NCBI RefSeq assembly: GCF_900110205.1
Contig: NZ_FOCV01000006.1
Span: 124,001-188,000 of the forward strand
Direction: 5' to 3'
DNA: 64,000 bases
Origin: Rhizobium tibeticum
GTDB taxonomy: Bacteria; Pseudomonadota; Alphaproteobacteria; Rhizobiales; Rhizobiaceae
The notes below the pieces were generated by a model that had not been told where the DNA came from, made no database searches, and was given only the letters and a program-made list of their open reading frames with translations. Positions 19,405 to 64,000 of the stretch are shown piece after piece. Both the position numbers and the translations under genes were made by a program. The first letter of the stretch is position 1, and each line of letters begins with the position of its first letter.

Positions 19405-19701
19405 TCACCTGAAAGGAAATCGCCAAGGCTGTCTCCAGATGTGTTTTTCGGCGTCCAGGAAATTTCCTGCCCTCAGCCTCAAAAGCAATTGGCCCCAGTT
19501 GGGCTGCCCGATCGAAACCCAGGCCCCTGGAGATGGTTCTTCCGCATGGAGGCAAAAGCACGCCTTGACGGAAGGCACGACCAGATCACGAGAGAAGGTG
19601 TTATTCCGAGCCGCTCAAAAACGACCTGGATTCGATCCATAACGAGTTGACCAGCCATCTGAAATGGTTCGGCCGGAAATTTGACTGACCTTTGCAGCAG
19701 A

Positions 19702-20052
19702 CTAGCTCGATCGCGGCCGACGGATCCAGTTTGCTGCAAACCCCAGAGCCACGCCGATTGTTGCACCGACAGCTTTTACAGAAGCGTCCTCAAGCCGCGC
19801 ATGGCGGGTTGGTGAGAAATACTGGAGGAGTTCTATTGTGGCCGCTCCGAGTATGACCAGGATAGCGCAAGCCCAGAAGTGACGGGGATAGGCTAACACG
19901 AACAGGAGAGCCATTGCTGTGAAGGCGAGTGCTCGGTCATAGCGCACGGACATGACGTCGTGCGGTCGTATACCGATCGGCGAGACGGTCACGAACAGGA
20001 TCGCGGCAAGCGACAACCACGCGGCGATCTTCAGGAGTCGGTCAAGAACCAT
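19702..20052 (-). CDS. VanZ-like membrane protein
   Basis: 116 residues from the ATG at 20052 (MVLDRLLKIAAWLSLAAI). There are about four membrane helices, with the polar signature SPIGIRP between the first two, a YDRALAFTAMALLF segment and ELLQYFSPTRHARLEDA, a pattern typical of short VanZ-family proteins. Such proteins are inner-membrane and of uncertain function, occasionally linked to glycopeptide tolerance or polysaccharide loci. A longer start at 20277 adds a region without family similarity and was not used. The gene stands alone in a gene-poor stretch. Confidence 0.7.
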   Translation of the reverse strand: MVLDRLLKIAAWLSLAAILFVTVSPIGIRPHDVMSVRYDRALAFTAMALLFVLAYPRHFWACAILVILGAATIELLQYFSPTRHARLEDASVKAVGATIGVALGFAANWIRRPRSS

Positions 20053-49228: not shown

Positions 49229-50620
49229 ATGGAACTTGAGCTGAATTCTGTCCGCCTTGCCTCCAAAGAAAAAGTCGCTGTTCTAGACAATTACTATCCG
49301 AGCGCCGAGGTCCGTCACTATCGAGTGAGTATCTTTGGCGCCGGCTATGTTGGTTGTGTTTCCTCCGCATGCCTCAGCAAGGACGGATTCGCCGTCGTGG
49401 CTGTCGATCCCGACCGGTTTAAAGTCGAGCGTCTTGCCGGAGGTCTGGCTCCGATCGTCGAGCCCGGCCTGGACGAGCTGCTGCACCAAGCGCACGCAAA
49501 CGACCTTCTGAGCGCAACCCACTCCGCGGTGGACGCCATCAACGATACCGATATCTCGTTTTGCTGCGTCGGAACACCGAGCCAGTCGGATGGCACTTTG
49601 AACACCGATCACGTTCGTCAGGTTTGCGAAGACATCGGCAAAGCGCTGCGGCATAAAGCCGACTTTCATATCATTGTCATGCGTTCGACGATCCTGCCCG
49701 GCACGATGGAAGAGCTCGTCATTCCAACGCTGGAGAAGGCTTCGGGAAAGATCGCCGGACGTGATTTCGGCGTTGCCTACTACCCCGAATTCCTTCGCGA
49801 GAGCACGGCAATCGCCGACTACTACAAGCCCGGTGCGATCGTGTTCGGGCAGTATGCGGACGATACGCGCTCCATTGATGCCCTGAAGGCTCTCGTCGGC
49901 CACATTGGCGTCACACCGCATGTCATTCCGATGGGCTGCGCGGAGATCGTCAAATACGCCAGCAACTGCTGGCATGCCGTCAAGATCAGCTTCTCGAACG
50001 AGATCGGCAACATCTGCAAGGCCAAGAACATCGACAGCCACGTCGTCATGGACGTGGTATGCTCCGATACGCGCCTCAATATATCCCGGGCCTATATGAA
50101 GCCGGGCTTCGCCTATGGCGGCTCCTGCCTTCCCAAGGATCTGCGAGCGTTGACGGCACTCGGCCGCGCTATGAACGTGCCGACGCCGGTCCTGGACGCC
50201 GCGCGGCTCGCCAATGCTGTTCAGATTGATCACGCGCGTTCGCTTGTCGACGCAGCCTCACATGAGACAATCGGCTTCATCGGTGTGACCTTCAAGGCCG
50301 ATACAGACGACCTCAGGGAGAGCCCATTACTCGAACTCGTCGAGGGCTTTCTTGGCAAGGGCAAGAATGTGTTGATCTACGATCCCCATGTTGCCAGGGA
50401 TCCGAGCCAGGGCCGCAATTTCCTCAAGCATATAGCGCCGCTCCTCCACGACAGCATCAAGGACGTTATCGCTGCATCCGAAGTGATTGTCGTCGGCAAC
50501 AAGTATCCCGGTCTGAAGGATGCGATCGAAACCGCCGGCAAGCTGGTAACCGTCATCGATCTGGCGCGCATCGAAAAACCGGAAAACAGAAACGTCATCT
50601 ATCACGGCCTGTGCTGGTGA
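49229..50620 (+). CDS. algD: GDP-mannose 6-dehydrogenase (AlgD type)
   Basis: 463 residues. The NAD-binding motif GAGYVG near residue 38, AVDPDRFKVERLAGGLAPIV, CVGTPS, the STILPGT loop and the catalytic Cys in GGSCLPKDLRAL near 296 identify the nucleotide-sugar 6-dehydrogenase family; GGSCLPKD-RAL is the AlgD rather than the UDP-glucose version. It oxidises GDP-mannose to GDP-mannuronate, the alginate precursor. It begins with about 30 extra residues before the usual start, of unknown role. It heads the cluster, separated from alg8 by 111 bp holding a GC-rich hairpin. Confidence 0.88.
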   Translation: MELELNSVRLASKEKVAVLDNYYPSAEVRHYRVSIFGAGYVGCVSSACLSKDGFAVVAVDPDRFKVERLAGGLAPIVEPGLDELLHQAHANDLLSATHSAVDAINDTDISFCCVGTPSQSDGTLNTDHVRQVCEDIGKALRHKADFHIIVMRSTILPGTMEELVIPTLEKASGKIAGRDFGVAYYPEFLRESTAIADYYKPGAIVFGQYADDTRSIDALKALVGHIGVTPHVIPMGCAEIVKYASNCWHAVKISFSNEIGNICKAKNIDSHVVMDVVCSDTRLNISRAYMKPGFAYGGSCLPKDLRALTALGRAMNVPTPVLDAARLANAVQIDHARSLVDAASHETIGFIGVTFKADTDDLRESPLLELVEGFLGKGKNVLIYDPHVARDPSQGRNFLKHIAPLLHDSIKDVIAASEVIVVGNKYPGLKDAIETAGKLVTVIDLARIEKPENRNVIYHGLCW

Positions 50621-50629
50621 CATGCACGT

Positions 50630-50668
50630 CGCCGGCCGCTCGACGGGGCCGGCGTATCTGTTCAGATA
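50630..50668 (+). promoter_or_regulatory. Intercistronic double hairpin between algD and alg8
   Basis: CGCCGGCC (50630-50637) pairs exactly with GGCCGGCG (50647-50654) around 9 nt; directly after it TATCTG and CAGATA (50655-50668) can form a second small stem. No T run follows, so it may stabilise or process the mRNA, or partly attenuate it, rather than end it. Confidence 0.45.
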
Positions 50669-50731
50669 TACAAGGGAGGAGGCCCGCGCTTCTCGAGAAG
50701 CAGCATGGCATGATCATCGAGGCAAGGAGTG

Positions 50732-52387
50732 ATGGCAAAAACGCAGCATGCCGATGGCTATGGAGCAGTTGCCGCGCCAGTAGATCGTCTACTGGCAAAG
50801 GTGCCCGACGGTCGTGACCCCAAATCCGCTTCACGGCTCGTCGCCTGGAGCGAAACGCTGGAAGCCCATCTCGTCTATATCGCTCTGATCCTTTGCATCG
50901 CCTGCGTGACACCGCTCGATAGTCTTGCAAGTGCCCATTCCGGTGCGCTTTTCGGCCTCGGCTTCCTCGCCGTCTGGCGATATGGCTGGGGCCTGGCGCA
51001 TTTTGTGCGATCCAACATCTACCGCTCGATCGTCTTTCCAAAAATGCGCGCCGAGGCCGAAGATGCGATGCGTGAAAGCGCTGACATCGAGGGCAACCAA
51101 CATGTTTTTCTTCTCGTCACCAGTTTCCGCATCGACGGCGATACGACTTCAGCCGTCTACCGCGCCGCGTTTGAAGCCGCAAAGCAGGCACCAGGTGGCG
51201 CAACCGTGGTCGCCTCCATCGTCGAGATGGGAGACCAGCGTCTGATCAAACTGCTTTACCGCCTGATCTGCGGCGAAGACACCAACGTTCGACTTGTCAT
51301 CACACGCATCGCTGGGACCGGCAAGCGCGATGCGCTGGCTTATGCTTTCCGTGCGATTTCTCGGCAGGAGCCTAAGGCAGACGATGTGGTGGCCGTCATT
51401 GACGGCGACTCGATCGTACCTCCCGATTTCGTCAGCAAATGTATCGGCTTTTTCCGGGCCGATCGCAGCGTCGGCGCGCTTACGACCGATGAGATCTCCC
51501 ATGTGCACGGCAAGGCAAAGTTCCATATCTGGTACAGCTTGCGATTTGCCCAGCGCCATATCCTCATGTCATCAAACGGCTTGTCACGCAAAGTGCTGAC
51601 GCTGACGGGGCGGATGTCGATGTTCAGGGCGTCGATTGTCTGCAACCCCGATTTCGTAAGGCAGGTCGAATCCGACTACGTCGATCACTGGCGGCTCGGC
51701 CGGCTGAAGTTCCTGACCGGAGACGACAAGTCGAGCTGGTTCTGGCTCCTGCGCAAGCGTTACAAGATGCTCTACATTCCAGACGTTATCGTCGCGACCG
51801 TCGAGGAACCTCCGTCCAAACACTTCCTGCCAGCGGCGACACAATTGATGGTGCGCTGGTTCGGCAACATGCTGCGCACGAATTCACGGGCGCTGGCACT
51901 CGGACCATCGAAAATCGGCTTCTTCACCTGGTGGACGATCTTTGATCAACGCGTCTCGATGTGGACCTCGCTTGCCGGACTGGCAATGGTTCTCCTCGTC
52001 GGGCTATTCGAAGCACCGTTCGCCTTCCTCATCTACCTTCTGTGGGTGCTCGCAACGCGCTATTTGCTGACGCTGATGCTGTTCAACTCGCGCCGCCGCG
52101 TTTCGGCCTTCTACCCCTTCTTCATTTATTTCAATCAGATCTACGGATCGATCGTCAAAACCTACATCTTCTTCCACCTGAACAAGCAAAAGTGGACGCG
52201 TCAGAAGACGACGCTTGGCGACAACCGGACACGCTTCGAAAGCCGTGTTCGCGAAGCCTCGTCAACACTTGTTCATGTCATCGCGCTCACCGTTTTCGTG
52301 ACGATCGTCGCCGTCGTCCTCGGACAACTGGCTATTCCGGAAGCACCCATATTTGCAATGGCCTACGGGCTCGACCCGATAAATTGA
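50732..52387 (+). CDS. alg8: Alginate-type polymerase Alg8 (GT2, membrane)
   Basis: 551 residues from the ATG at 50732 (a GTG directly before it is possible). Two N-terminal membrane helices precede a GT2 domain with AGTGKRDALAYAF, VAVIDGDS (DxD near 223), LTTDEISHVHG and the acceptor-site TGDDKSSW near 328; QLMVRWFGNMLR resembles the QxxRW motif of processive synthases. Further membrane helices follow. Alg8 polymerises GDP-mannuronate across the inner membrane. Length and helix pattern match Pseudomonas Alg8. It sits 10 bp before alg44, its c-di-GMP-sensing partner. Confidence 0.88.
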   Translation: MAKTQHADGYGAVAAPVDRLLAKVPDGRDPKSASRLVAWSETLEAHLVYIALILCIACVTPLDSLASAHSGALFGLGFLAVWRYGWGLAHFVRSNIYRSIVFPKMRAEAEDAMRESADIEGNQHVFLLVTSFRIDGDTTSAVYRAAFEAAKQAPGGATVVASIVEMGDQRLIKLLYRLICGEDTNVRLVITRIAGTGKRDALAYAFRAISRQEPKADDVVAVIDGDSIVPPDFVSKCIGFFRADRSVGALTTDEISHVHGKAKFHIWYSLRFAQRHILMSSNGLSRKVLTLTGRMSMFRASIVCNPDFVRQVESDYVDHWRLGRLKFLTGDDKSSWFWLLRKRYKMLYIPDVIVATVEEPPSKHFLPAATQLMVRWFGNMLRTNSRALALGPSKIGFFTWWTIFDQRVSMWTSLAGLAMVLLVGLFEAPFAFLIYLLWVLATRYLLTLMLFNSRRRVSAFYPFFIYFNQIYGSIVKTYIFFHLNKQKWTRQKTTLGDNRTRFESRVREASSTLVHVIALTVFVTIVAVVLGQLAIPEAPIFAMAYGLDPIN

Positions 52388-52397
52388 GGGAGTGGAT

Positions 52398-53528
52398 ATG
52401 AACGTCGTAAAGTTCGAAGCGGATGTACAACGCCAGCATGCGCGTTACAAACTTCCCTTAAAATGCGTCATCGACGGATACCGCTACACCTGTCTCGACT
52501 GGTCGGTTGGTGGTGTGGGGGTTGCGACCGGCAAGACAGTGCTGCCCGAATTCAAAACATTTCCAGTTGACCTTGAATTCCCCTTCGACGGCTTTGTTTT
52601 CACGCTGAGGGTGGATGCACAGGTTCGCTACTGCGACCCGACGAAGGGACGCACAGGTTTCCAGTACATGTCGCTGACGGAGGAAAAGCTCCGCTTTCTG
52701 CGCTACGTGCGTGATGCTCATCTGAGTGGCGAGGTCGTCACCCTTAACGACGTCCTGGATCTGTCCAGCCGATCCGTCGATCCCCGTGGTCGGAAGAAGG
52801 ATGCCAGCTCGGAGGAACCGGCCTTTGGCGGGTGGTACGAGGCGGTGGCCAGGCGGTGGCTGCGCATTGCCGTAACGTCGATCCTCGGCATCGGAGTACT
52901 GCTTTTCTTATGGGGTGCGCTTTATCAGCGGCTCTGGACCTTCCGCGCCGACCAGTCGCTCGTGACGATCGATTCGGCAGCCGTGATCGCGCCGTCAGAC
53001 GGCGTCGTCACCAACATCGTGACGCAAGGAGCGGTGAAGGCCGGCGATCCCGTGGCGACCATCCTGCCCACGGCCAACAACCGCAGTGTCACCGTACTGG
53101 CGCGCTGTGACTGCATCATTCAGGATGTTCAGGTCGGACTGGACAGCCAGGTCCGAGCCGGACAACGGCTTCTGTCACTGAGCATGCAGAATGCAAAGCC
53201 GCACGTGGTGGCGATGGTGGACTATTCCCAAGCCCTGCGTCTCTACAAGGGCGCGCGTGTTCTGGTCGAACTTCCTGATGGGAAGAGGATTTCGAATGCT
53301 GCCATCCGCGATCTGCCGAAGCTGACAAGCACCGATCTTGCCTCTGGCAACAAGATCCCGATCAACATTGACGTCGGCGACGCAGATCTCGCCTCGATCG
53401 TTGGAACGCCGGTGACGGTGCGATTCGTGCACTCGCCGTGGACGACCAGGGCCTTGCCGCAAATGCTGAAGAGCTACGTCGACACAACCGGGACCGAGAG
53501 CCGACCAGCAGCGGAAACCAAGGGATAA
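52398..53528 (+). CDS. alg44: PilZ-domain c-di-GMP receptor / polymerase co-factor Alg44
   Basis: 376 residues from the ATG at 52398 (GGGAG, 5-nt spacer). The N-terminal PilZ domain has both binding motifs intact: R12-Q-H-A-R16 (RxxxR) and D34-W-S-V-G-G (D/NxSxxG). A single membrane helix (near 160-180, VTSILGIGVLLFLWGAL) is followed by a periplasmic HlyD-like barrel/lipoyl part (VIAPSDGVVTNIVTQGAVKA, RAGQRLLSL). In alginate systems Alg44 binds c-di-GMP and switches on Alg8, while the periplasmic part links to the export complex. Order alg8-alg44 is as in Pseudomonas. Confidence 0.9.
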   Translation: MNVVKFEADVQRQHARYKLPLKCVIDGYRYTCLDWSVGGVGVATGKTVLPEFKTFPVDLEFPFDGFVFTLRVDAQVRYCDPTKGRTGFQYMSLTEEKLRFLRYVRDAHLSGEVVTLNDVLDLSSRSVDPRGRKKDASSEEPAFGGWYEAVARRWLRIAVTSILGIGVLLFLWGALYQRLWTFRADQSLVTIDSAAVIAPSDGVVTNIVTQGAVKAGDPVATILPTANNRSVTVLARCDCIIQDVQVGLDSQVRAGQRLLSLSMQNAKPHVVAMVDYSQALRLYKGARVLVELPDGKRISNAAIRDLPKLTSTDLASGNKIPINIDVGDADLASIVGTPVTVRFVHSPWTTRALPQMLKSYVDTTGTESRPAAETKG

Positions 53529-53608
53529 GAGGAGCGCTCCAGCCAACCAGGTGGGTGAGAGCAAATCGTATCAGACGCGTTCGATAGCCAGGAATGACGA
53601 GGGAGTTA

Positions 53609-56600
53609 ATGCGTATGACATGCACAAAACGAGACCTCGCTAAATTGACCGCCTCAGCTCTGGCTGCCGCCGCTCTGCTTTGGGCAACCGGGGTTTGCCC
53701 GGCATTGGCTCAGACATCGGACAGTGTTCAACAGATCGTCGAGAAAATCCGGCAATCCGTTCTTGACGTGGATAAATCAAGGACGCCCACTGAGCGGATC
53801 AAGGCCTATGACCGCGCCCGCGACCAGTTGGCCACGCTTGCGGTAACCGCGGACGGTGGTGATGAGTCTGCCAGAACCAGCATTGCCGATCTCGAGGCGG
53901 ACGGCATTACGCCCGACGTCGTCACCACAGGTACCCTGAGCGCCACGTTCGCAAGCCTGACCGACAAGGGGGCCGACCCGGACGCGCGCGTTGCGACACG
54001 ACTGAGGATCGACGATCTTATCGACGCCCTGTCGGCGCCGGAACTCAAAGTATCGGCTCTGGCCGACTATGCGCAACAGATCGCGAGCGACCACGATGCC
54101 GCCTTAACGCTGTTGGAAAGGGCAATCGATGTCAGTGCACAGCTTGCCTCGGCGGATGAGAAGAATGCCGCGCTCAACAACATCGCCCAGGTCGGAGCCT
54201 ATGTCGAACCGAAGCTGACCTCCAACATCATCAATAGGGCCGTCGGTGGCATGTGGCCGGCTCGCATGCGTGGATTTGCCCGCTACGATATCGCCCTGCG
54301 CCTGCTCGGCGACAAGAAACTCGGCAAGAAGGACATCAAAGACGCCAAATTCGAGGACATCTCGGCAACAGTGAAAACCGAACTCAAGGCCAAGCGGCTA
54401 GAGCAGGCCCTGCTGTTGGCGCTCGCCGTCGATCCTGAATCGTCCGAACATCGCGCCGACATGGTCAACGAGGTCTTGAGCGCAGCGCTCAAAGCAAATG
54501 CGGTGAACCTGTTCCCGGTTTTCGCCACGAGCCTCGCCGATCGGAGTGATCAGGAAGACCTGATCGTCCGCATCGTCAAGGACCGCGTCGATGCCGACCG
54601 TCTGATCGACGCGATGGCAATGACCAATGCGATGGAACGTGGCCCGGGGCTCGCAGAGATCGACTTCACCCTCGCCTCCGAACTCAGCGATCGTGGACTG
54701 GCGAAGATGGCCACGCAGCAGTACGATCGGGGCACGGAGATCGTCAAAACGTTAAGCGGCGATGCCAAGGAAGCCGCCCTGATTGCAGCCATAGGTGGGG
54801 CAACCGACCTCAAGCGCTTCGATGACGCCCAGGCCTTCGCAGATCAGCTGACTGACATGCAGGGTGCATCCAATGCCCTGGGCAATCTTGCCAAGGCGTT
54901 TGCAGACAGCGACGATTTGAAGAAGGCCGAAGCGCTTCTCCCGAAAATCACCACACTCAAGGACCGGGAGCAGGCGCTTTCGGGCATCGGTCGCGCCAAG
55001 GCGAGAGAGGGAGACCTCGATGCCGCAACGAAGATCGCCGACGAGATAGCAAACGACGAAGACAAGGGCCGCGTGCAATCGGAAATTGTCCGGGTCTTAG
55101 CGCGCAACGGCAAAATCGACGACGCAATGGGCCTTGCAACCTCCATCAAGGAACCGGAATACCGCGTCGAAGCGCTCCTGCGGCTTGCCAAGGAGATATC
55201 TGGAACGGACGATGCCGAAAAGGCGCAACATGTCGTCAGCCAGGCGATCGCTTATGCAGGCGGGGTGGACAAGGCAGAGAAGCGCGACGACTTGTTCTTC
55301 GACATTATCGATTACTTGTCGAAGTCCAACCAGATCGAGCTTGCGAAGAAGCTTGTCAGTAAGATTTCCGATGAGAAGCTGAAGGCAAAAGCAGCAGGGC
55401 GCATTGCGAGCCGGGCTGCATTGTCTGGCGACACCAAGAACGCCATCGCCTATTTCGAAAGCCAGCCCGCCGCCCGCGATGAGATGCTCAAAGCCGAGGT
55501 GATGATCGCCGCCGCCAACGATCCGGCCTATGTCGAGACGGCCATTTTTGCCACCAGGGATTTCCACGATCCGATGCTGCGGGTGCGCACGTTTCGCGCC
55601 ATTGCGCAAGCGCAGTTGCGTCACCTCGACCGGCTTGGTTGGGGAATGGGGAAGGGCGACCCCTCAGAGTATAAGGACTGGCTGAAGAAGGCGGCATTGG
55701 CGGCGGTGGACGAAGACCCGGCCCAACCTTCGACGGCAGTCTTCAGCGATGGCCGAATGTCTCTGCGCACGACATCCGTCATGAGCGCCTCGCTCACCAA
55801 ATACGGATACCCCGACATAAGCAAGACAGCCGCGACGACCCGCTCGATGGTACCGCTGCCGACACCGGGACGGATCTCGATAACGCTTGGAAACCTCAGT
55901 CCCTATGAAAGCAAATTCATGGAGGATCTCGCAGCCGGATTTACCGGTCTCTCCCACGCTGCGCGCGCACAAGGGCTTCTCTATCCGCGGATCATCGTCA
56001 TTCAGAGCGGCGTTTACACGCTCGGCAGCCTGGCAATGCAGCTCGATAGCATGGCCGGCGAGCCGCTGGTCGAGCGGGACGGCGACATCGTGACGCTTCG
56101 CGCTCCGTTGCTCGTCGGCGAGAAGGCAGGCCTGATCTTGTCCGGTCAGGAGGCGTCTACCTATCGCTTGTCGGCCACCGCCGGTGCCTTTCTGGCGGTC
56201 GGCGGCAGGCTCTACATTCAGGACACGAAGGTAACCTCATGGGATGAAGCGCTCTTGAAGCCGCGCAATTCCAGCAAGGACACGCGCGGGATATTCCGGC
56301 CCTTCATCGTCGGCTGGAGCAATTCCGAAATGTATATTGGCGGATCGGTCTTGGATTCGCTGGGGTACGCAGCCTCAAAGTCTTTCGGCCTGACGTTTTC
56401 GGCCGGACCGAAGACAATTGCCAAGGCTCGCGAGCAGTTGCGAAATCCGACAGGCATCGTCGTCGAGAATTATTTTCACAACTTCGAGTACGGCTTCTAT
56501 TCCTATGAGGCCGATGACATCTCGCTTATCGGAAACGAATATGCAAACAACGTCCTCTATGGCGTTGATCCCCACGACCGCTCGCAGCGGCTGCTGATTG

Positions 56601-57361
56601 CGCTCAACACCGCGCACGACACGATGGTCAAGCATGGGATCATCATCTCCCGCGGTGTCGATGCCAGTTGGCAAATCGGCAACGTGGTGTTCCACAACAA
56701 GGGCTCCGGCCTGATGCTCGACCGCGACAGCGTCGACAATCTCGTTTACGGCAACCTTTCCTTTAAGAACGACCAGGATGGCCTGACATTCTTCGAGAGC
56801 AGTTGCAATCTCGCGGTCGCCAACGCGTTCGTCGAGAATGGCCGCTCCGGCGTGCGCATGCGCAACAGCTGGGACATCGGTGTCCATGACAACGCCATCG
56901 TTCGCAACAAGCTCGAGGCGATCAGCGGCTACATCAGCGACCTGTCGCTCGCAGAGGATGAGCACAAGCGCGATCTGGTGATGGATCCTTATGTGCCACT
57001 GACGACCTTTACCGCCTCCGACAACCTGATCTCTGCAAACGGCAAGGGGATAAAGGCCGCCGGCGTCTCGGGACTTACATTGGCACAGAACGAATTCCGC
57101 AATCAGGAAGGCCGTCTCCTCGACGGCGACACACGTCCGTTCGAGGGCCACGTGCTGCGCTTCAACGGGCACCAGGACGTGGCGATCGCATCTACATGCC
57201 GTCCGCAGCGGCCGGAAAACTACGAATGCGCGTTCAGGAAGGCGGGGTTCCTGGGCGAGAACGACGCACTTTTCTTTGACAGCAAAACTTCCGGCAATTG
57301 CACCGACGCTCGCGGCTCCGTGCAGTTCGAAAGTTTCCATGGAAAAGGAGACAGCAGTTGA
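53609..57361 (+). CDS. algG: Mannuronan C5-epimerase AlgG fused to a long helical-repeat domain
   Basis: About 1250 residues. A signal peptide ends CPALAQT. Residues about 30-700 are Ala-, Leu-, Asp- and Lys-rich helices with TPR-like periodicity (AEALLPKITTLKDREQALSG, AQAFADQLTDMQGASNALGN). The last 500 residues are a right-handed beta-helix matching AlgG, with the active-site YGVDPHDRS near 985, MVKHGIIISRGV, GSGLMLDRDS, NLVYGNLSFKNDQDGLTFFE and SGVRMRNS. AlgG converts D-mannuronate to L-guluronate in the polymer in the periplasm. Pseudomonas keeps AlgG separate from the repeat protein AlgK. Several ATGs are possible (53594, 53609, 53615); GAGGGAG lies between the first and second. Confidence 0.85.
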   Translation: MRMTCTKRDLAKLTASALAAAALLWATGVCPALAQTSDSVQQIVEKIRQSVLDVDKSRTPTERIKAYDRARDQLATLAVTADGGDESARTSIADLEADGITPDVVTTGTLSATFASLTDKGADPDARVATRLRIDDLIDALSAPELKVSALADYAQQIASDHDAALTLLERAIDVSAQLASADEKNAALNNIAQVGAYVEPKLTSNIINRAVGGMWPARMRGFARYDIALRLLGDKKLGKKDIKDAKFEDISATVKTELKAKRLEQALLLALAVDPESSEHRADMVNEVLSAALKANAVNLFPVFATSLADRSDQEDLIVRIVKDRVDADRLIDAMAMTNAMERGPGLAEIDFTLASELSDRGLAKMATQQYDRGTEIVKTLSGDAKEAALIAAIGGATDLKRFDDAQAFADQLTDMQGASNALGNLAKAFADSDDLKKAEALLPKITTLKDREQALSGIGRAKAREGDLDAATKIADEIANDEDKGRVQSEIVRVLARNGKIDDAMGLATSIKEPEYRVEALLRLAKEISGTDDAEKAQHVVSQAIAYAGGVDKAEKRDDLFFDIIDYLSKSNQIELAKKLVSKISDEKLKAKAAGRIASRAALSGDTKNAIAYFESQPAARDEMLKAEVMIAAANDPAYVETAIFATRDFHDPMLRVRTFRAIAQAQLRHLDRLGWGMGKGDPSEYKDWLKKAALAAVDEDPAQPSTAVFSDGRMSLRTTSVMSASLTKYGYPDISKTAATTRSMVPLPTPGRISITLGNLSPYESKFMEDLAAGFTGLSHAARAQGLLYPRIIVIQSGVYTLGSLAMQLDSMAGEPLVERDGDIVTLRAPLLVGEKAGLILSGQEASTYRLSATAGAFLAVGGRLYIQDTKVTSWDEALLKPRNSSKDTRGIFRPFIVGWSNSEMYIGGSVLDSLGYAASKSFGLTFSAGPKTIAKAREQLRNPTGIVVENYFHNFEYGFYSYEADDISLIGNEYANNVLYGVDPHDRSQRLLIALNTAHDTMVKHGIIISRGVDASWQIGNVVFHNKGSGLMLDRDSVDNLVYGNLSFKNDQDGLTFFESSCNLAVANAFVENGRSGVRMRNSWDIGVHDNAIVRNKLEAISGYISDLSLAEDEHKRDLVMDPYVPLTTFTASDNLISANGKGIKAAGVSGLTLAQNEFRNQEGRLLDGDTRPFEGHVLRFNGHQDVAIASTCRPQRPENYECAFRKAGFLGENDALFFDSKTSGNCTDARGSVQFESFHGKGDSS

Positions 57362-58527
57362 AAAATGCGGCTCACTCTTTTCTTTCGGCACGCAGCGGGA
57401 TCGCCCTGCTGGCGGCCGTCCTCAGTGCGAGCGCGCTGCCGGGCGCATCACAGGCATCCGTGGCGCAGGCAGCAAACGGCGGCTATCAGGGCCTCTTTGA
57501 CGTGAAGGCACGCAAGGATTTTCTCGCGCAGAACCCATCATCTGATGCTCGCAAGGCGTGCCTTGCGGTCGACGCCGACGCCAAATGGCTGAACATCGAG
57601 GTCATCAAGGGTCTGACGACCACACAGGGATACGGCACGGACCGGTCCGGCAATCAGTACGCCTGGGCGGTCATGGTCCTGTCCGGCCGCGCGCTTGCCG
57701 GTGACAAACGGGCCGAGGAGATGCTCACGGCCTTTCTGCTGAAATGGGCGGACGCCGGCGCATTCTCTGAAACCGAAAAGGTTCACGACGCCTACTACGC
57801 CCTGAAACGTCTGATGCTGCCGACTGTCGTGGCCTATTCGATCATCCGCGACGGGCTCGGTGACGAAGAGAAGCAGAGGCTGATCGCCTGGATCGATCCG
57901 CTGGTCCGACGAACCGATCAGATCTTCGAGGGAAGCGTTGACTACAACAACCACCGCTATCTGGCCGACAGCGTGCTGATGGCCTGGGGCAGCCTGACGG
58001 GTGATCAAGAGCTTTACCAGAAGGGGCTCGACCGCTTTGGCGTCATCCTCAACGACGCCCGTGCGGACGGCAGCCTTCCTCTCGAAACCCGCCGCGGTGC
58101 GCGCGCACTCTGGTACATGCGCCAGTCGCTGACAAGCATGACCGTCATGGCCGAAATCGCCGCCGGCGGGCAGGACGCCCTGTTCGACGCGACGGCGGTC
58201 GTCGATGGAAGGAAGAAATCCATGTGGACGGTCCTGTCCTACTGGATGAATGGCATGACCAACCCGATCCTGGTCAAAGCCTACTCCGCCGAGAACTACA
58301 TTCCCGGACCGGAACAGGACTTCATGAAACCGGATTTCGGCTTCCTCGAAAACAGGGGCAACGGACGCCACTACCTGGCGTTCCTCGAGGCGCTGGCCAC
58401 TCATGAACCACCGAACTTCATTCAACGGCGTGCAAGCGCCCTCCTCGAACGAGAAGGAGCAAACGAACGTCCTCTCATCGACGAATTCGCCGGCGGCAAT
58501 GCCACCTGCTTCTGGAGGCAAGGATGA
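57358..58527 (+). CDS. algL: Alginate lyase AlgL type (PL5 family), periplasmic
   Basis: 389 residues from a TTG at 57358 that overlaps the previous stop and has AAGGAG 7 nt upstream; a longer start at 57298 has no such site. A signal peptide precedes SVAQAANGGYQGLFDVKARK. PL5 landmarks are visible: DYNNHRYLADSVLMAWG (NNH motif with catalytic His), then GSLPLETRRGARALWYMRQS carrying the Arg/Tyr part of the active site. AlgL cleaves polymannuronate by beta-elimination and clears stray polymer from the periplasm. The end overlaps the next gene (ATGA). Confidence 0.82.
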   Translation: MKNAAHSFLSARSGIALLAAVLSASALPGASQASVAQAANGGYQGLFDVKARKDFLAQNPSSDARKACLAVDADAKWLNIEVIKGLTTTQGYGTDRSGNQYAWAVMVLSGRALAGDKRAEEMLTAFLLKWADAGAFSETEKVHDAYYALKRLMLPTVVAYSIIRDGLGDEEKQRLIAWIDPLVRRTDQIFEGSVDYNNHRYLADSVLMAWGSLTGDQELYQKGLDRFGVILNDARADGSLPLETRRGARALWYMRQSLTSMTVMAEIAAGGQDALFDATAVVDGRKKSMWTVLSYWMNGMTNPILVKAYSAENYIPGPEQDFMKPDFGFLENRGNGRHYLAFLEALATHEPPNFIQRRASALLEREGANERPLIDEFAGGNATCFWRQG

Positions 58528-61469
58528 GACTGCGCCAGTGGGACTTCTTTATCTTGCTTGCAGCCGGCTATCTCGTCGTCTCAGGGCCGACGGTGGTATG
58601 CGCCGCCCCGACGGCAACGCCGGCCGAGCAGGTCGATCTACTGATCCAGCAGAGCGATGATGAGGGGCTTTTGAAAGTCGCCAAGCAGTTGCGGGGCGGA
58701 CTGGCAGTCTCGGCCGACAATCCGTTGAGGGTGCCAAACTTCCCGAAAGCACGCCAAGCTCTTGAGACCGCCGTGACATTGCCCGGCCCCAGACAGGCGG
58801 AAGCAAAACTTCTGCTCGCCAAGATGATGCTGGCAGGCGAGGGAGGACCGGTTGACGTCGATCGTGCGCTGGCACTACTCGACGACGTCATCAAGGCGGG
58901 CAATGCCGAGGCGGCCTATATCCGCGGGCAGAAACTGGCATCCCTTCCAAACCGCGATCAGGAAGCGCGCGACAACCTCAATCTTGCCCTTCGCCTCGGC
59001 GACGGCGCTGCGGCATTCGAGCTTGCAAAGCTTTCCGGCGCAAAACCGGCACAGGCCGCGATGACGGGCTTCGGCCTCAACCTTTTGCGTCAGCGCGTTG
59101 CGCGAGGGGATGCAGGCGCGGCCTTCGATCTCGGCGGATACTATCGAAAGCTGTCGGACAAGCCCGAGGATCAGAAGGAGGCCTTGGCTTGGTATCGAAA
59201 GGCGGCACAATTGGGCCAAACGGCAGCCGTCGTCTGGGTGGCACGTCTGCTCAGCAATCCCGACACGCCGCTCTTCGATCCCACAGCCGCAATCGAACAG
59301 TACCAAACAGCCGCACGCGACGGATCGATCGAAGCCGCGCAGGAATTGGTGCGGGACTTTGCTGATGCCGGTCCGCTGAAAGTTCCACCCGACGTATACG
59401 ACGTTTGGATTGCCAAACTGATCGACGCCAAGGACGCGACGGCGGTCCTTTATTATTCCCAGGCATTGCAGGAAACGGCCGAGCAGCGCAGGCAGTCGTC
59501 GGACCAGCTCTATGAGGCGACAATGGCCGGCGACGTGGCTAACGTCGACGACCTGATCCGGATCGGCGAGAGCTTTCGCGACGGAGCGGGTGTCGTCATC
59601 GACCAGACGCGCGCCGCAAGCATTTTCCGCCTTGGCGTGAGGAATGGCTCCAACGCCGCCCTCACGAGATTTGCGCATCTGGTTATCGATGCCCCGTCTC
59701 TGAGAAGCCAAGAAAACGTCGCCCTTGCTCTTGAAAAGCTGAGCGGGCTGGCCGCGAAAGGAAGCGTCACCGGCCAGCTGCTGCTCGGCGACATGTACGC
59801 CAAAGGCGTCATGGGACAGGTGGACGAGACGAAAGCCATCGACCTTTATCGCAGAGCCCTTGCAGCAGCCGAGTCGGTCGAGGTGCTCAATCGCTTGGCC
59901 GACGTCTACCTCTCATCCGCCGATATGGACAAGCGCAGGAAAGCCTTCCCCTATATCGAGCGCGCCTCTCGAGCCGGCAGCGAGAGCGCCATGCTAAAGG
60001 AGGCCGAGGCCTATGCCGATGGAGAAATCGTCGGCCAGGATTTCGATAGGGCCGTCGCGCTCTACAAGAAAGCAATTTCGCTTGGCGCCACCGATGCCTT
60101 GGTCAGTTTGGCGAACCTTTATCTTTCGCGTGGCGGGGAGACCGCATTTCGCGATGCACATAAGGCCTTCTCCGATGCGATCGCGGCAGGGAACCGGGAA
60201 GCGCCGGTCGAAATGGCACGATTCCTCAAAGCAAATGGCAAGCTGGACGAAGCGATCGATCGACTGACCGCTGCCGCTCGAAAGAACAACAGCTCGGCTG
60301 CTGTAGAGCTCTATGAATATGCGTCAGAACGGGCGCAGGATCCGAATGTAGGGGCGCAATGGCTGCGACTGGCCCTGAAGACGATGAGCGATGTTCCGCG
60401 TGAGAAAGTGCATCTGGCAAGCGTCATGCTGATGCCGTCGGATATACGACTCAATCTCCAGGGAGCCGCGATGCTGCGCGAGCTGGCCGGCGCAAAAATT
60501 CCCGGTGCTGCCGTCGCCCTGTCCAGCGTCTATATCGAGGGGAAAGGAGATGTCAAAGATGTCCCGGCTGGCCTGGAACTATTGGAGCAGGCGTCCCAGA
60601 AAGGCGACGTCGATGCCATCTTGAAACTTGGCGACCTCTACATGGACGGCAAGTTTGTCGAAGGCGACGGCGAGAAGGCCGTCAACTATTACCGCGCCGT
60701 GATCACACTCCATCCGGACGATCCGGTCGCCAACATGCGCATGGCGCGCGCCTATCGGGAAGGGCGAGGCGTTGAACGCAATCTGGCTGTTGCGGCGACC
60801 TACCTGAAGATTTCCTCTGATGCGGGAAGCCGGATGGCGACGCGGGATCTTGGCCTCGCCTACATCTGGGGCAGCGGCGTCGAAAGGCAGGAAGACACGG
60901 CCGTTCAGCTGCTGCGCTCTGCGGCCGAGCACGGCTTTGCCTTTGCCTGGCACGATCTTGCCGAGACATATGGCTCTGCCATCGGCCCCGAGGTCGACGC
61001 GTCCCAGAACTTCAGACTTAACATGCGCGGCGCCAGGGAAGGTCACGTATCGGCGATGATCGGAGCGGGCGTCGCGCTTCTATCCGGCTTCGGCACCCAG
61101 CGCGATCCGGAGGCGGGCATCCTGTGGCTGGAACGGGCGTCGGCCAGCAGCGGCTGGGATGCTCCCGATGCGATGCACAGGCTGGCGGAGGTCTACAAAT
61201 TCGGCATCGGCGTTGACAAGGATCCCAAGAAGGCGCGCGAATGGGAGCTGCGAGCGGCAAATGCGGGCAGCGCCACTGCAATGTTCCATCTTGCCCTGGA
61301 TCTTGAAGCCGCGAATACGGACGCCAGCAAGGCCGAAGCAATCAAGTGGCTGCAGCGCGCGCGCGCCCTCCAGCATGTTCAAGCCGCAAAGAAGCTCAAA
61401 AGAATGGGTGCGGAAGACCTGTCTTCCGTATCGCTGCAGGGGGTCGAAGACAATGATGTGGAAGAGTGA
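58524..61469 (+). CDS. Large Sel1-repeat periplasmic scaffold protein (AlgK-like role)
   Basis: 981 residues. A signal peptide ends VCAAPT; no lipobox Cys in the usual place, unlike Pseudomonas AlgK. Most of the chain is Sel1-type helix pairs with A-x2-LG-x-LY-x2-G-x-G/V periods, e.g. LLLGDMYAKGVMGQVDETKA, ILKLGDLYMDGKFVEGDGEK, MRMARAYREGRGVERNLAVA and DLGLAYIWGSGVERQEDTA. AlgK is a smaller (about 450-residue) Sel1/TPR lipoprotein that ties the porin to the inner-membrane complex, so this may fill that role at twice the size. It overlaps the lyase gene by 4 nt. Confidence 0.8.
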   Translation: MRLRQWDFFILLAAGYLVVSGPTVVCAAPTATPAEQVDLLIQQSDDEGLLKVAKQLRGGLAVSADNPLRVPNFPKARQALETAVTLPGPRQAEAKLLLAKMMLAGEGGPVDVDRALALLDDVIKAGNAEAAYIRGQKLASLPNRDQEARDNLNLALRLGDGAAAFELAKLSGAKPAQAAMTGFGLNLLRQRVARGDAGAAFDLGGYYRKLSDKPEDQKEALAWYRKAAQLGQTAAVVWVARLLSNPDTPLFDPTAAIEQYQTAARDGSIEAAQELVRDFADAGPLKVPPDVYDVWIAKLIDAKDATAVLYYSQALQETAEQRRQSSDQLYEATMAGDVANVDDLIRIGESFRDGAGVVIDQTRAASIFRLGVRNGSNAALTRFAHLVIDAPSLRSQENVALALEKLSGLAAKGSVTGQLLLGDMYAKGVMGQVDETKAIDLYRRALAAAESVEVLNRLADVYLSSADMDKRRKAFPYIERASRAGSESAMLKEAEAYADGEIVGQDFDRAVALYKKAISLGATDALVSLANLYLSRGGETAFRDAHKAFSDAIAAGNREAPVEMARFLKANGKLDEAIDRLTAAARKNNSSAAVELYEYASERAQDPNVGAQWLRLALKTMSDVPREKVHLASVMLMPSDIRLNLQGAAMLRELAGAKIPGAAVALSSVYIEGKGDVKDVPAGLELLEQASQKGDVDAILKLGDLYMDGKFVEGDGEKAVNYYRAVITLHPDDPVANMRMARAYREGRGVERNLAVAATYLKISSDAGSRMATRDLGLAYIWGSGVERQEDTAVQLLRSAAEHGFAFAWHDLAETYGSAIGPEVDASQNFRLNMRGAREGHVSAMIGAGVALLSGFGTQRDPEAGILWLERASASSGWDAPDAMHRLAEVYKFGIGVDKDPKKAREWELRAANAGSATAMFHLALDLEAANTDASKAEAIKWLQRARALQHVQAAKKLKRMGAEDLSSVSLQGVEDNDVEE

Positions 61470-61731
61470 GCGCCAACGCAGCGTCACATTTCGCAAGCGA
61501 ATACCGCGCCCGCCGCTCGGAGGTCTGAATCTGGAGAAAAACCGAGGGCGCAATTCACGTGTCCTCGCCTGCACAGCGCTGATCGTGCCGCCCCGGAGCG
61601 ATTGTGGAGTTTGGCCGACCCACAACTGGGTCGTCCTGGTAAAAAACGAGATTATCGCGCGGGCAAGCCAGCGGGTGCTCGAGAAAATGAGAGCAGCACG
61701 GCACGAGAGTGACGACGGTCGCAAACAATGA
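61456..61731 (+). CDS. Possible small basic protein between the two Sel1 genes
   Basis: A 91-codon frame opens at an ATGATG inside the last 17 bp of the preceding gene and fills most of the 274-bp gap before the next. The product (MWKSERQRSVTFRKRIPRPP onward) is strongly basic, has no signal peptide and matches no family I know. The overlap looks like translational coupling, but codon use is not convincing and it may be chance. Confidence 0.25.
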   Translation: MWKSERQRSVTFRKRIPRPPLGGLNLEKNRGRNSRVLACTALIVPPRSDCGVWPTHNWVVLVKNEIIARASQRVLEKMRAARHESDDGRKQ

Positions 61732-61743
61732 GGTAGCGTTTAA

Positions 61744-64000
61744 ATGGCGAACGGAAACGAGATTTGGAGTGCGGCCGTCGGCCGCCGGCTTGGGAGTTTC
61801 CGAAAGACCGCGCTCGCAGCGACGCTTGCCTTTTGCGCGCCAGGTCTTGCAACGAACACCCTTGCCGCCACCGCCACTGAGACATTGATTCCACTGAGCC
61901 CGGATTTCGACTATTCGCAGATCTGTGTCGCGCCGCCTGCGGTGCCTGCGCCGCGCAACTGGAGCCGTTGGGACGGCAAGAGCCAAAGCACGATCTCGCC
62001 CGACGACATGCTGCGGGACGCGCAAACGCTCTTCAACCCCTACAGTCGATATCAGACAAGCCCGGCGACCGCTGAACGCATGGCCCTTTACCTGAGCCAG
62101 GTGCCTTTTGCCGGAGCAGGTCGCGCACTCCATCTCTACGGTCGCATTCTGGCGGATGACGACGATGCCTCTTTGCGCGCCGATGAAATCGTCAGGGCCG
62201 AGGCCGCGGCAATCAAACGCGGGACGATCGAGGCGGGAACCTTTCTCGGCCGGCTCTATCGCGAAGGCGAGGTCGTGCCGGCCGACCTCAAGACGTCACA
62301 AGCATACCTGACTGCGGCAGCAAATGCCGGCGATCCGAACGCCGAGCTTGAGCTTGCGCGCCTCTACTACCGCAATCCTCAACTTGCAGAGACCGCCGAC
62401 ACCAGCCGGGTTTATCTGAACCGTGCGATCTCGAAGATGTCCGAAAGGCTAGGCACCGGCGATTGTAGCGTCCTGACCGGTTTTGCCGACATCCTGGTCG
62501 ATCCCGATTTGGGGCTCGATGACAAACAGACCTCGGCAGAATGGCTGCAAGCTGCCGTGAAGCTCGGTGATGTCAGGGCAATGTCAACATTGGCGCGCCG
62601 CTACCTGCAAGACAATGGCGTCGCTGCCAATCATGAGCGGGCAATCGGGCTGCTGAGGCAAGCGTCGGCGCTTGGACATGCAGCAAGCCGGCTGACCCTT
62701 GCTGATCTTCTGCTTTCGACCTCACAACAAGGTAGCGGCAAGGACGAAGCATTCAAACTGCTGGCTCAGGAAGCAGAGCGCAACAACCCGCGCGCATATG
62801 AAATGAAAGCCGCCTACTATCGTGGTGCTTACGGGGCCGGAACAGATCCCGGTCTCGAGCTGCAAAGCCTACAGAAGGCGGCTGTGCTGCCGGACGCCAG
62901 CCTTCGCACACTGGAGCAACTCGGCATCATCTATGCGCGCGGCAGCGCTGGCGCACCAAATTTCGAGCTCGCCAAGCAAACGCTGACCAAGGCCGCCGAT
63001 CTTGGCTCGTCGCGTTCCGCATTCGAGCTCTACAACCTTGCCTCAGGTGAAAAGCCATCGATAAGGCTGGACAAGGATCCACTGGACTATTTGAAAGCTG
63101 CCGCCGACCACGGCCTCGGCGTTGCAATGAGCGAGCTGTCATCTCTCTATTCCTGTGGAACGGGTGTCGAGAAGGACCGTGCCAAGGCACGCGTCTGGCT
63201 TGAAAAGGCGGCAGCCGCAGGCAACGCGGCAAGCCTCTTGACGCTTGCAGACGAGGCTTTTGCCAAACGCACACCCGATGGTGATGCGGCAGCGGTCGAC
63301 TATCTCGTGCAAGCGGCGAAGCAAGGCGATGTCGAAGCCATGATGCGTGTCAGCCGCTCTTACCGTGACGGCCGGGGAACACCGAAGGATGCGGCCGCGG
63401 CCAAGACCTGGCACCAGCGCGCCATGACAGCTGATCCTGGAGTTGCGACGCTGACCGAGGCGCGAGCCCTTCTGTGGCCGGATGCCTTAGAGGAGCGCGA
63501 CGCTATCACGGCAAGAGCGATGCTGGAGGCATCGGCCCCGACCGGAAATCCGGACGTGCTCTTCGAACTGGCAAGGCTTTACATCGACCCCGATCCAACA
63601 CTCGAGCCAGATCCCAAGAGGGCCACATCCCTCTTCGTCGAGGCGGCGTCCAGGGGCAGCATCGCGGCCATGCTGCGGCTGGTGGACATGAAGGTAGCGG
63701 CCGCCGACGGCGGCGGAGCGGATTGGCAGCGATGGCTCGCCCGCGCCAACGCGTCTGGCGATTTGCGCGCGCTCCTCAAGCGAGCCGAACTTGAAGGCGA
63801 CACCGAGCGCCAGGCAACCGTTTTGAAAACCGCCCTCAGCCGGCCGCTTTGCCTGGAGAAGGAAAAGATACAGGTTGCCTTGGCGATGCGAACCATGCCG
63901 CAATTCAGGCAGGACTATCTCGGTCTGTTCGATCAAGTGATGGCCGAGCCAACGAAGGATCCAAGTACGCAGTACCAGGTTGCCCGTTTTCTGCTGAATG
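61744..64000 (+). CDS. Second large Sel1-repeat periplasmic protein (runs off the right edge)
   Basis: I translated this frame directly: ATG at 61744 (GAGG 9 nt upstream), 752 codons open to the edge. A positively charged start and hydrophobic segment (KTALAATLAFCAPGLATNTL) look like a signal peptide. Repeats follow, e.g. ERMALYLSQVPFAGAGRALH, SQAYLTAAANAGDPNAELEL, MSTLARRYLQDNGVAANHER and GAYGAGTDPG-type turns, the Sel1 pattern. It resembles the previous Sel1 gene in architecture and probably serves the same export or scaffold complex. The C-terminus, and any genes for a porin or acetylation, lie outside the window. Confidence 0.8.
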   Translation, partial: MANGNEIWSAAVGRRLGSFRKTALAATLAFCAPGLATNTLAATATETLIPLSPDFDYSQICVAPPAVPAPRNWSRWDGKSQSTISPDDMLRDAQTLFNPYSRYQTSPATAERMALYLSQVPFAGAGRALHLYGRILADDDDASLRADEIVRAEAAAIKRGTIEAGTFLGRLYREGEVVPADLKTSQAYLTAAANAGDPNAELELARLYYRNPQLAETADTSRVYLNRAISKMSERLGTGDCSVLTGFADILVDPDLGLDDKQTSAEWLQAAVKLGDVRAMSTLARRYLQDNGVAANHERAIGLLRQASALGHAASRLTLADLLLSTSQQGSGKDEAFKLLAQEAERNNPRAYEMKAAYYRGAYGAGTDPGLELQSLQKAAVLPDASLRTLEQLGIIYARGSAGAPNFELAKQTLTKAADLGSSRSAFELYNLASGEKPSIRLDKDPLDYLKAAADHGLGVAMSELSSLYSCGTGVEKDRAKARVWLEKAAAAGNAASLLTLADEAFAKRTPDGDAAAVDYLVQAAKQGDVEAMMRVSRSYRDGRGTPKDAAAAKTWHQRAMTADPGVATLTEARALLWPDALEERDAITARAMLEASAPTGNPDVLFELARLYIDPDPTLEPDPKRATSLFVEAASRGSIAAMLRLVDMKVAAADGGGADWQRWLARANASGDLRALLKRAELEGDTERQATVLKTALSRPLCLEKEKIQVALAMRTMPQFRQDYLGLFDQVMAEPTKDPSTQYQVARFLLN

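Follow-up and report, generated by a model that had tools for sequence, protein, structure and literature searches.

An alginate-type gene cluster with a predicted c-di-GMP switch and no recognizable AlgE gene in Rhizobium tibeticum

The locus and its genes

The window analyzed here, 64,000 nucleotides of Rhizobium tibeticum DNA (contig C76:124001-188000 of a 7.06 Mb genome in 166 contigs, 99.98% complete), carries toward its right end a cluster in which AlgD-, Alg8-, Alg44-, AlgG- and AlgL-type genes follow one another at positions 49229-58527 and lead into genes for three Sel1-repeat proteins, SelA, SelB and SelC. An earlier note on this DNA had described the first five genes as ordered and overlapping, and the open reading frames (ORFs) and Pfam/NCBIfam matches bear this out: the TTG start of algL at 57358 overlaps the algG stop, and the SelA start at 58524 overlaps the algL stop. 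All cluster frames in the window are open and retain their catalytic motifs. In the standard alginate model the pore is AlgE, and a search for the AlgE-family barrel (PF13372) gave no match anywhere in the genome, even at E ≤ 1, whereas all five added control genomes with AlgE beside alg8 gave matches. Judged by its gene families, the operon appears to be a variant of the alginate system in which the catalytic core is intact and the periplasmic part has been rebuilt.

The first gene (49229..50620; all cluster genes in the window lie on the plus strand) encodes a 463-residue AlgD-type GDP-mannose 6-dehydrogenase with PF03721/PF00984/PF03720 domains. Its best match in the PDB is 1mfz, the Pseudomonas GDP-mannose 6-dehydrogenase (372.7 bits, E 3e-110), versus 213.7 bits (E 5.3e-62) for the best UDP-glucose enzyme, 3vtf. 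The protein is thus of the GDP-mannose type and not the UDP-sugar-type dehydrogenase that the earlier note had named as a finding that would count against an alginate-type pathway; because of this assignment, a glucuronan, that is, a UDP-glucuronate polymer, was considered and rejected as the product, and a literature search on that idea yielded nothing. The glycosyltransferase family 2 (GT2) polymerase that follows (552 residues, 50729..52387; PF13641, Glyco_tranf_2_3) is of the Alg8 type, aligning with alphaproteobacterial, Pseudomonas and Marinobacter Alg8 and sharing 48% identity with Alg8 in a Pseudomonas ceruminis alginate operon. The 378-residue Alg44-type protein (52392..53528) combines PilZ and HlyD_3 domains in Pfam; the PilZ domain matches the Alg44 PilZ structure 4rt0 (E 1.8e-8) and, in the alignment, retains the cyclic di-GMP (c-di-GMP) motif RxxxR, DxSxxG and the R95-equivalent arginine, and the membrane-fusion domain is present. 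By analogy, Alg44 is likely to bind c-di-GMP and the cluster is likely to be switched on by it. An NCBIfam search returned nothing for Alg8 or Alg44.

The algG gene (53594..57361) encodes a fusion, as the earlier note had it: within 1255 residues, an N-terminal signal-like stretch (by eye) is followed by a predicted helical superhelix of ~620 residues and by an AlgG mannuronan C5-epimerase domain at residues ~731-1170. The predicted structure of this domain superposes on solved AlgG, and its motif residues, DPHD at 992-995 and Arg1020, are conserved; the NCBIfam AlgG model matches with E 4.9e-84, with a score for NF038177 under that model's cut-off, and Pfam assigns β-helix families only. Foldseek matches of the helical arm are generic superhelices resembling tetratricopeptide (TPR) or pentatricopeptide repeats; a second Foldseek list was filled by the AlgG domain and therefore barely tested the arm. 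A sequence relationship of the arm to AlgK or to the Sel proteins was rejected, the profile probability being only 0.5-30. As a separate observation, the AlgG fusion of R. gallicum M101 (L017:13365-17115) is read as two overlapping frames of 785 and 513 residues, whereas at the related loci L058 and L060 it is one frame of ~1253 residues; the split is either strain-specific or a sequencing error.

The AlgL-type polysaccharide lyase family 5 (PL5) protein (389 residues, TTG start, 57358..58527) matches PF05426 with E 9.2e-19 and PL5 structures remotely. In the alignment it retains equivalents of H202, R249 and Y256, which are catalytic according to the excerpted text of PMC8829089, our source for the catalytic and substrate-binding roles of AlgL residues. 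Extra AlgL-like lyases lie near the cluster end in R. nepotum (L106, reverse complement 17768-18802, minus), R. wuzhouense (L109:8259-9269) and Defluviimonas (L111:8708-9811).

The Sel1-repeat proteins

SelA (981 residues, 58524..61469; Sel1 E 1.8e-49), SelB (959 residues, 61744..64623, crossing the window edge at 64000) and SelC (430 residues, C76:188648-189940, beyond the window) all belong to the Sel1 family. Two huge Sel1 proteins had been claimed; the 981-residue protein and a large second one are indeed there, but the number is three. The AlphaFold2 model of SelA is a Sel1 solenoid that is helical apart from two short strands (predicted local distance difference test score 84.9, predicted template modeling score 0.57, the latter leaving the overall curve of the model unsure), so that a β-barrel hidden in SelA was rejected; its best Foldseek match is the Sel1 protein 6ok3, and the top folds are Sel1 proteins. 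SelA is likely to be periplasmic. In comparisons with a profile of six gammaproteobacterial AlgK sequences, SelA, SelB and SelC reach probabilities of 99.5, 99.1 and 98.5, which suggests distant kinship with AlgK, although shared Sel1 repeats alone could give this likeness. No lipobox pattern was found in any of the three, and none thus qualifies as AlgK, a lipoprotein TPR scaffold. The suggestion that AlgK had been replaced by repeat proteins therefore stands in part: Sel1 proteins are present and a lipoprotein AlgK is not, but by profile the Sel1 proteins are its distant relatives and not unrelated to it.

Genomic background and functions encoded elsewhere

The full 14.8 kb cluster stretch is 95.6% identical to megaplasmids of three Rhizobium strains, T136, T1470 and T1473, so the cluster is itself rhizobial, in keeping with the rhizobial background that the earlier note had recognized; its GC content equals that of the window (0.597 versus 0.595), giving no sign of recent import. 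Extension to the right of 64000 added the third Sel1 gene but no AlgE barrel, AlgX/AlgJ, AlgI or GDP-mannose supply gene: a reading of ORFs of at least 150 residues together with a profile search found no AlgE, AlgX, AlgI, AlgJ or AlgF in the 20 kb that follow the window (up to C76:208000), so that the absence of export and acetylation genes remarked up to the edge continues beyond SelC. The operon also holds no AlgA/ManC. This does not amount to a loss from the genome, which encodes ManC (GMP_PMI) on C74 (above cut-off) and C107 (just under cut-off) and AlgI, AlgJ, AlgX and AlgF on C107. Beyond SelC, a minus-strand ORF is followed, by eye, by a separate polysaccharide region; the 380-residue ORF directly after SelC (L010:1981-3123, minus) has a right-handed β-helix look by eye and no Pfam match at E ≤ 0.001.

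Related clusters

A genome scan yielded at least 563 confirmed relatives, of which the best 80 were kept; seven loci from plasmids and the window itself brought the set compared by profiles to 88 loci, most spanning ~10 kb on either side of alg8; motif counts are text patterns over stop-to-stop frames in stretches that mostly end ~10 kb from alg8. A long AlgG fusion (frame above 900 residues) occurs in 41 of the 88, mostly in Hyphomicrobiales. Within the compared stretches none of these 41 has AlgE, and the PilZ motif is present in all of them, D[PSAL]HD in 39, and NNH in 33 of the 36 in which AlgL is visible. AlgE was found in nine of the 88 loci, five of them gammaproteobacterial and four from alphaproteobacterial metagenome-assembled genomes. 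Where longer stretches were compared, the genes of Microvirga, Fulvimarina and R. wuzhouense run Alg8-Alg44-(ManC)-AlgG fusion-AlgL-SelA-SelB-SelC; R. nepotum and Devosia have the same order with AlgX-AlgF between SelA and SelB, and Peteryoungia has this insertion as well, with AlgL after SelB and no third Sel1 gene assigned in the stretch compared. A longer version in R. gallicum adds ManC, AlgX, AlgF, a phosphomannomutase-like gene, AlgI and AlgJ, and lacks AlgE throughout 46 kb.

Alg8 was detected in 20 of 148 genomes of the genus (E ≤ 1e-60), in 29 of 394 in the family sample, 17 of these above 600 bits (E ≤ 1e-100), and in 23 of 385 in the class sample, 3 of these above 600 bits (E ≤ 1e-100); matches with lower scores may belong to different GT2 families. 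The cluster does sit in a rhizobial background, but what had looked like an oddity there is a type spread patchily in alphaproteobacteria and not a lone import. On the Alg8 tree, which was built by a quick method from Alg8 relatives only, with Shimodaira-Hasegawa-like approximate likelihood ratio test (SH-aLRT) support only and no outgroup, the AlgG-fusion label needs five changes, at least four of them forced, so the fusion does not form one clade.

Several relatives carry genes resembling secreted epimerases downstream of such clusters. In R. wuzhouense, a 1368-residue protein with RTX and cadherin-like repeats is encoded downstream (L109:9411-13514), and its N-terminal module matches the Azotobacter mannuronan epimerases AlgE6 (E 6.1e-84) and AlgE4 (E 1.4e-83); Fulvimarina likewise has a gene resembling Azotobacter AlgE-type epimerases downstream of its cluster (L114 reverse complement, 15462-20000). 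Such modules were found in 8 of 25 alg8-bearing genomes versus 0 of 20 alg8-free genomes of the window's genus, a co-occurrence confounded by kinship because all 20 controls belong to that genus; in four of the eight (G010, G012, G013, G016) the module is encoded on the strand of alg8, 13.5-15.4 kb downstream of that gene. The Azotobacter-type genes downstream of sister clusters support a mannuronan product, as far as sequence similarity can indicate it.

Another alginate-type cluster of R. tibeticum

A second cluster (C107:28556-44550; L102, L103) contains AlgD, Alg8, Alg44, ManC, AlgG-like, AlgI, AlgJ, a small protein, AlgX, AlgF, a 911-residue SelB homolog and AlgL, adjoins a LuxR-type regulator (by eye) and holds no AlgE. 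Its Alg8 falls in a separate clade of 26 rows (SH-aLRT 100), referred to here as type B, which includes Loktanella, Gemmobacter and R. rosettiformans. The type shares AlgD, Alg8, Alg44, an AlgG-like protein, AlgL and a SelB homolog with the window operon, again with no AlgE seen; unlike it, type B has an unfused AlgG without DPHD and has lost the PilZ motif, and possesses ManC, AlgI, AlgJ, AlgX and AlgF. In the copy from R. tibeticum itself, AlgL reads NNL (His to Leu), the AlgG-like protein lacks DPHD, and the PilZ RxxxR is lost; in the other 25 loci of the clade the PilZ motif is absent from all 25, NNH from all five in which the site was seen, and DxHD from 21 of 22, the remaining one matching. 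The second cluster may make an acetylated, non-epimerized polymannuronate under transcriptional rather than c-di-GMP control. In each of the strains T136, T1470 and T1473, a single plasmid of 1.8-2.0 Mb bears both the window cluster and the algD-alg8 portion of the second one.

The SelB family matches the ~910-residue TPR protein of type B with an hhalign probability of 100 (E 3.1e-59), and an N-terminal PP..C..W-like motif is common to most members of both groups. Profile alignment of the ~910-residue proteins with SelA reaches column 907 of 918; by eye they are TPR/Sel1 to the end, and the idea that they are AlgK-AlgE fusions was rejected. Downstream of the type-B cluster of Gemmobacter (L112:10387-17079) lies a gene for a 2231-residue RHS-repeat protein with a colicin-DNase/WHH nuclease-like C-terminus.

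A proposed pathway and its alternatives

We posit, with a probability of roughly two in three, that the operon makes a partly epimerized, probably non-acetylated polymannuronate upon c-di-GMP binding to Alg44 and that export without AlgE is likely. AlgD would oxidize GDP-mannose, supplied by the off-cluster ManC, to GDP-mannuronate; c-di-GMP bound to the Alg44 PilZ domain would activate Alg8, which would build the polymer and drive it into the periplasmic space; the AlgG fusion would epimerize mannuronate (M) to guluronate (G) while its long helical arm docked to a SelA/SelB/SelC scaffold that substitutes for AlgK; AlgL would degrade leaked chain; and the polymer would leave either through an outer-membrane pore encoded off-cluster or through something new. 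Polymer identity, c-di-GMP control, assembly and outer-membrane exit are proposed here by analogy with families established in Pseudomonas, and the alginate-type uronan pathway suggested by the earlier note gains support from the GDP-mannose-type AlgD, the Alg44 PilZ domain and the AlgG matches. Several observations weigh against this proposal. No NCBIfam alginate equivalog model reaches its own cut-off for the window proteins (PRK00325 and AlgK give weak matches below theirs), and the structural check called for on the polymerase found no PDB match to Alg8 by sequence. In the alignment, AlgL shows no counterpart to K66, W205 or Y259, which bind the substrate. AlgX is absent from the operon, which, failing AlgE, a lipoprotein AlgK and acetylation genes, is not classed as a canonical alginate operon, although it would work like one. 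AlgE-type secreted epimerases are found neither in the R. tibeticum genome nor in its relatives G001-G003, so the epimerase support applies to the lineage and not directly to the strain. Finally, among 25 alg8-bearing Hyphomicrobiales and Rhodobacterales genomes, four have a PF13372 barrel (G008, G014, G016, G025), and a divergent off-cluster barrel may therefore have been missed here.

This last point bears on the strongest alternative, to which we give slightly less than an even chance: that the operon works and exports through an AlgE-like barrel, ordinary or diverged, whose gene lies off-cluster, making the export route nothing new. The barrels of G008, G014 and G016 lie on a contig other than that of alg8, and off-cluster parts would be normal here, since ManC is encoded off-cluster; yet PF13372 is absent from the R. 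tibeticum genome and from the other 21 of the 25 relatives. At the opposite extreme, the AlgG arm and the three Sel1 proteins, which total ~3,000 residues of helical repeat, could form the whole trans-periplasmic conduit for an AlgE-free alginate export in Hyphomicrobiales with a non-AlgE exit, one Rhizobium cell running two machines, an epimerizing one gated by c-di-GMP and an acetylating one without the c-di-GMP motif; we offer this tentatively and consider it rather doubtful.

The nature of the product invites a different objection, namely that Alg8, AlgG and AlgL have been adapted to a related uronan or a mixed polymer and not to M/G alginate. The substrate-binding residues lost from an AlgL that matches PL5 only remotely and the want of a solved Alg8 homolog by sequence fit this idea, which the GDP-mannose-type AlgD, the conserved AlgG motif residues and the mannuronan-type secreted epimerases downstream of sister clusters render unlikely. 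Less probable still is decay of the window operon, with its acetylation and export genes lost and the C107 cluster left as the only working one. Relatives do have an AlgX-AlgF pair separating SelA from SelB, and at that place the window shows neither gene nor any detectable relic, and the second cluster does hold ManC, AlgI, AlgJ, AlgX and AlgF; but the frames of the window operon are open, its motifs are kept, and the stretch is conserved in three Rhizobium plasmids, whereas the losses of c-di-GMP, epimerase and lyase-His motifs are seen in the second cluster, and Microvirga, with the same genes plus ManC, likewise lacks AlgX/AlgF in the stretch compared.

If the proposed pathway is correct, the coherent, AlgE-free alginate gene set that recurs in rhizobia and related soil bacteria would imply a further way across the outer membrane, and root-associated bacteria may produce alginate upon c-di-GMP. 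A single cell offers a comparison of a c-di-GMP-gated, epimerizing cluster with an ungated, acetylating one, and the export route and a possible role in root attachment are open to simple gene-deletion tests.

Comparison with known systems

The alginate operon of Pseudomonas and Azotobacter has the order algD-8-44-K-E-G-X-L-I-J-F-A. The window operon resembles it in AlgD, Alg8, Alg44 with its c-di-GMP motif, AlgG and AlgL, with catalytic residues kept, and departs from it in the ~620-residue helical arm of AlgG, in three Sel1 proteins in place of a lipoprotein AlgK, and in having no AlgE, AlgX, AlgI, AlgJ, AlgF or AlgA in the operon. Pseudomonas and Azotobacter are the bacteria for which the excerpts of PMC4444821 describe alginate production, and in the Pseudomonas model given there AlgX is part of the export complex. 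We found no report of a rhizobial alginate cluster in the open-access literature searched, and alginate and algD are absent from the main text of an R. favelukesii exopolysaccharide study. Rhizobial polysaccharides activated by c-di-GMP include, in the excerpts of PMC9495663, PMC5567048 and PMC7902896, the glucans cellulose and the mixed-linkage glucan of BgsA/BgsB; their loci likewise pair a GT2 synthase with a membrane-fusion partner, but by gene content the window differs in having a GDP-mannose dehydrogenase, a C5-epimerase and an alginate lyase together. A precedent lies in the atypical alginate operons without algKE described in deep-sea bacteria by Bundalovic-Torma et al. 2020 (PMC7112194), which, like the window, lack outer-membrane transport loci; the excerpted parts of that paper mention no replacement by Sel1 proteins or an AlgG fusion and do not name rhizobia in connection with alginate, whereas the window operon joins such a gene set to both an AlgG fusion and Sel1 proteins in a Rhizobium.

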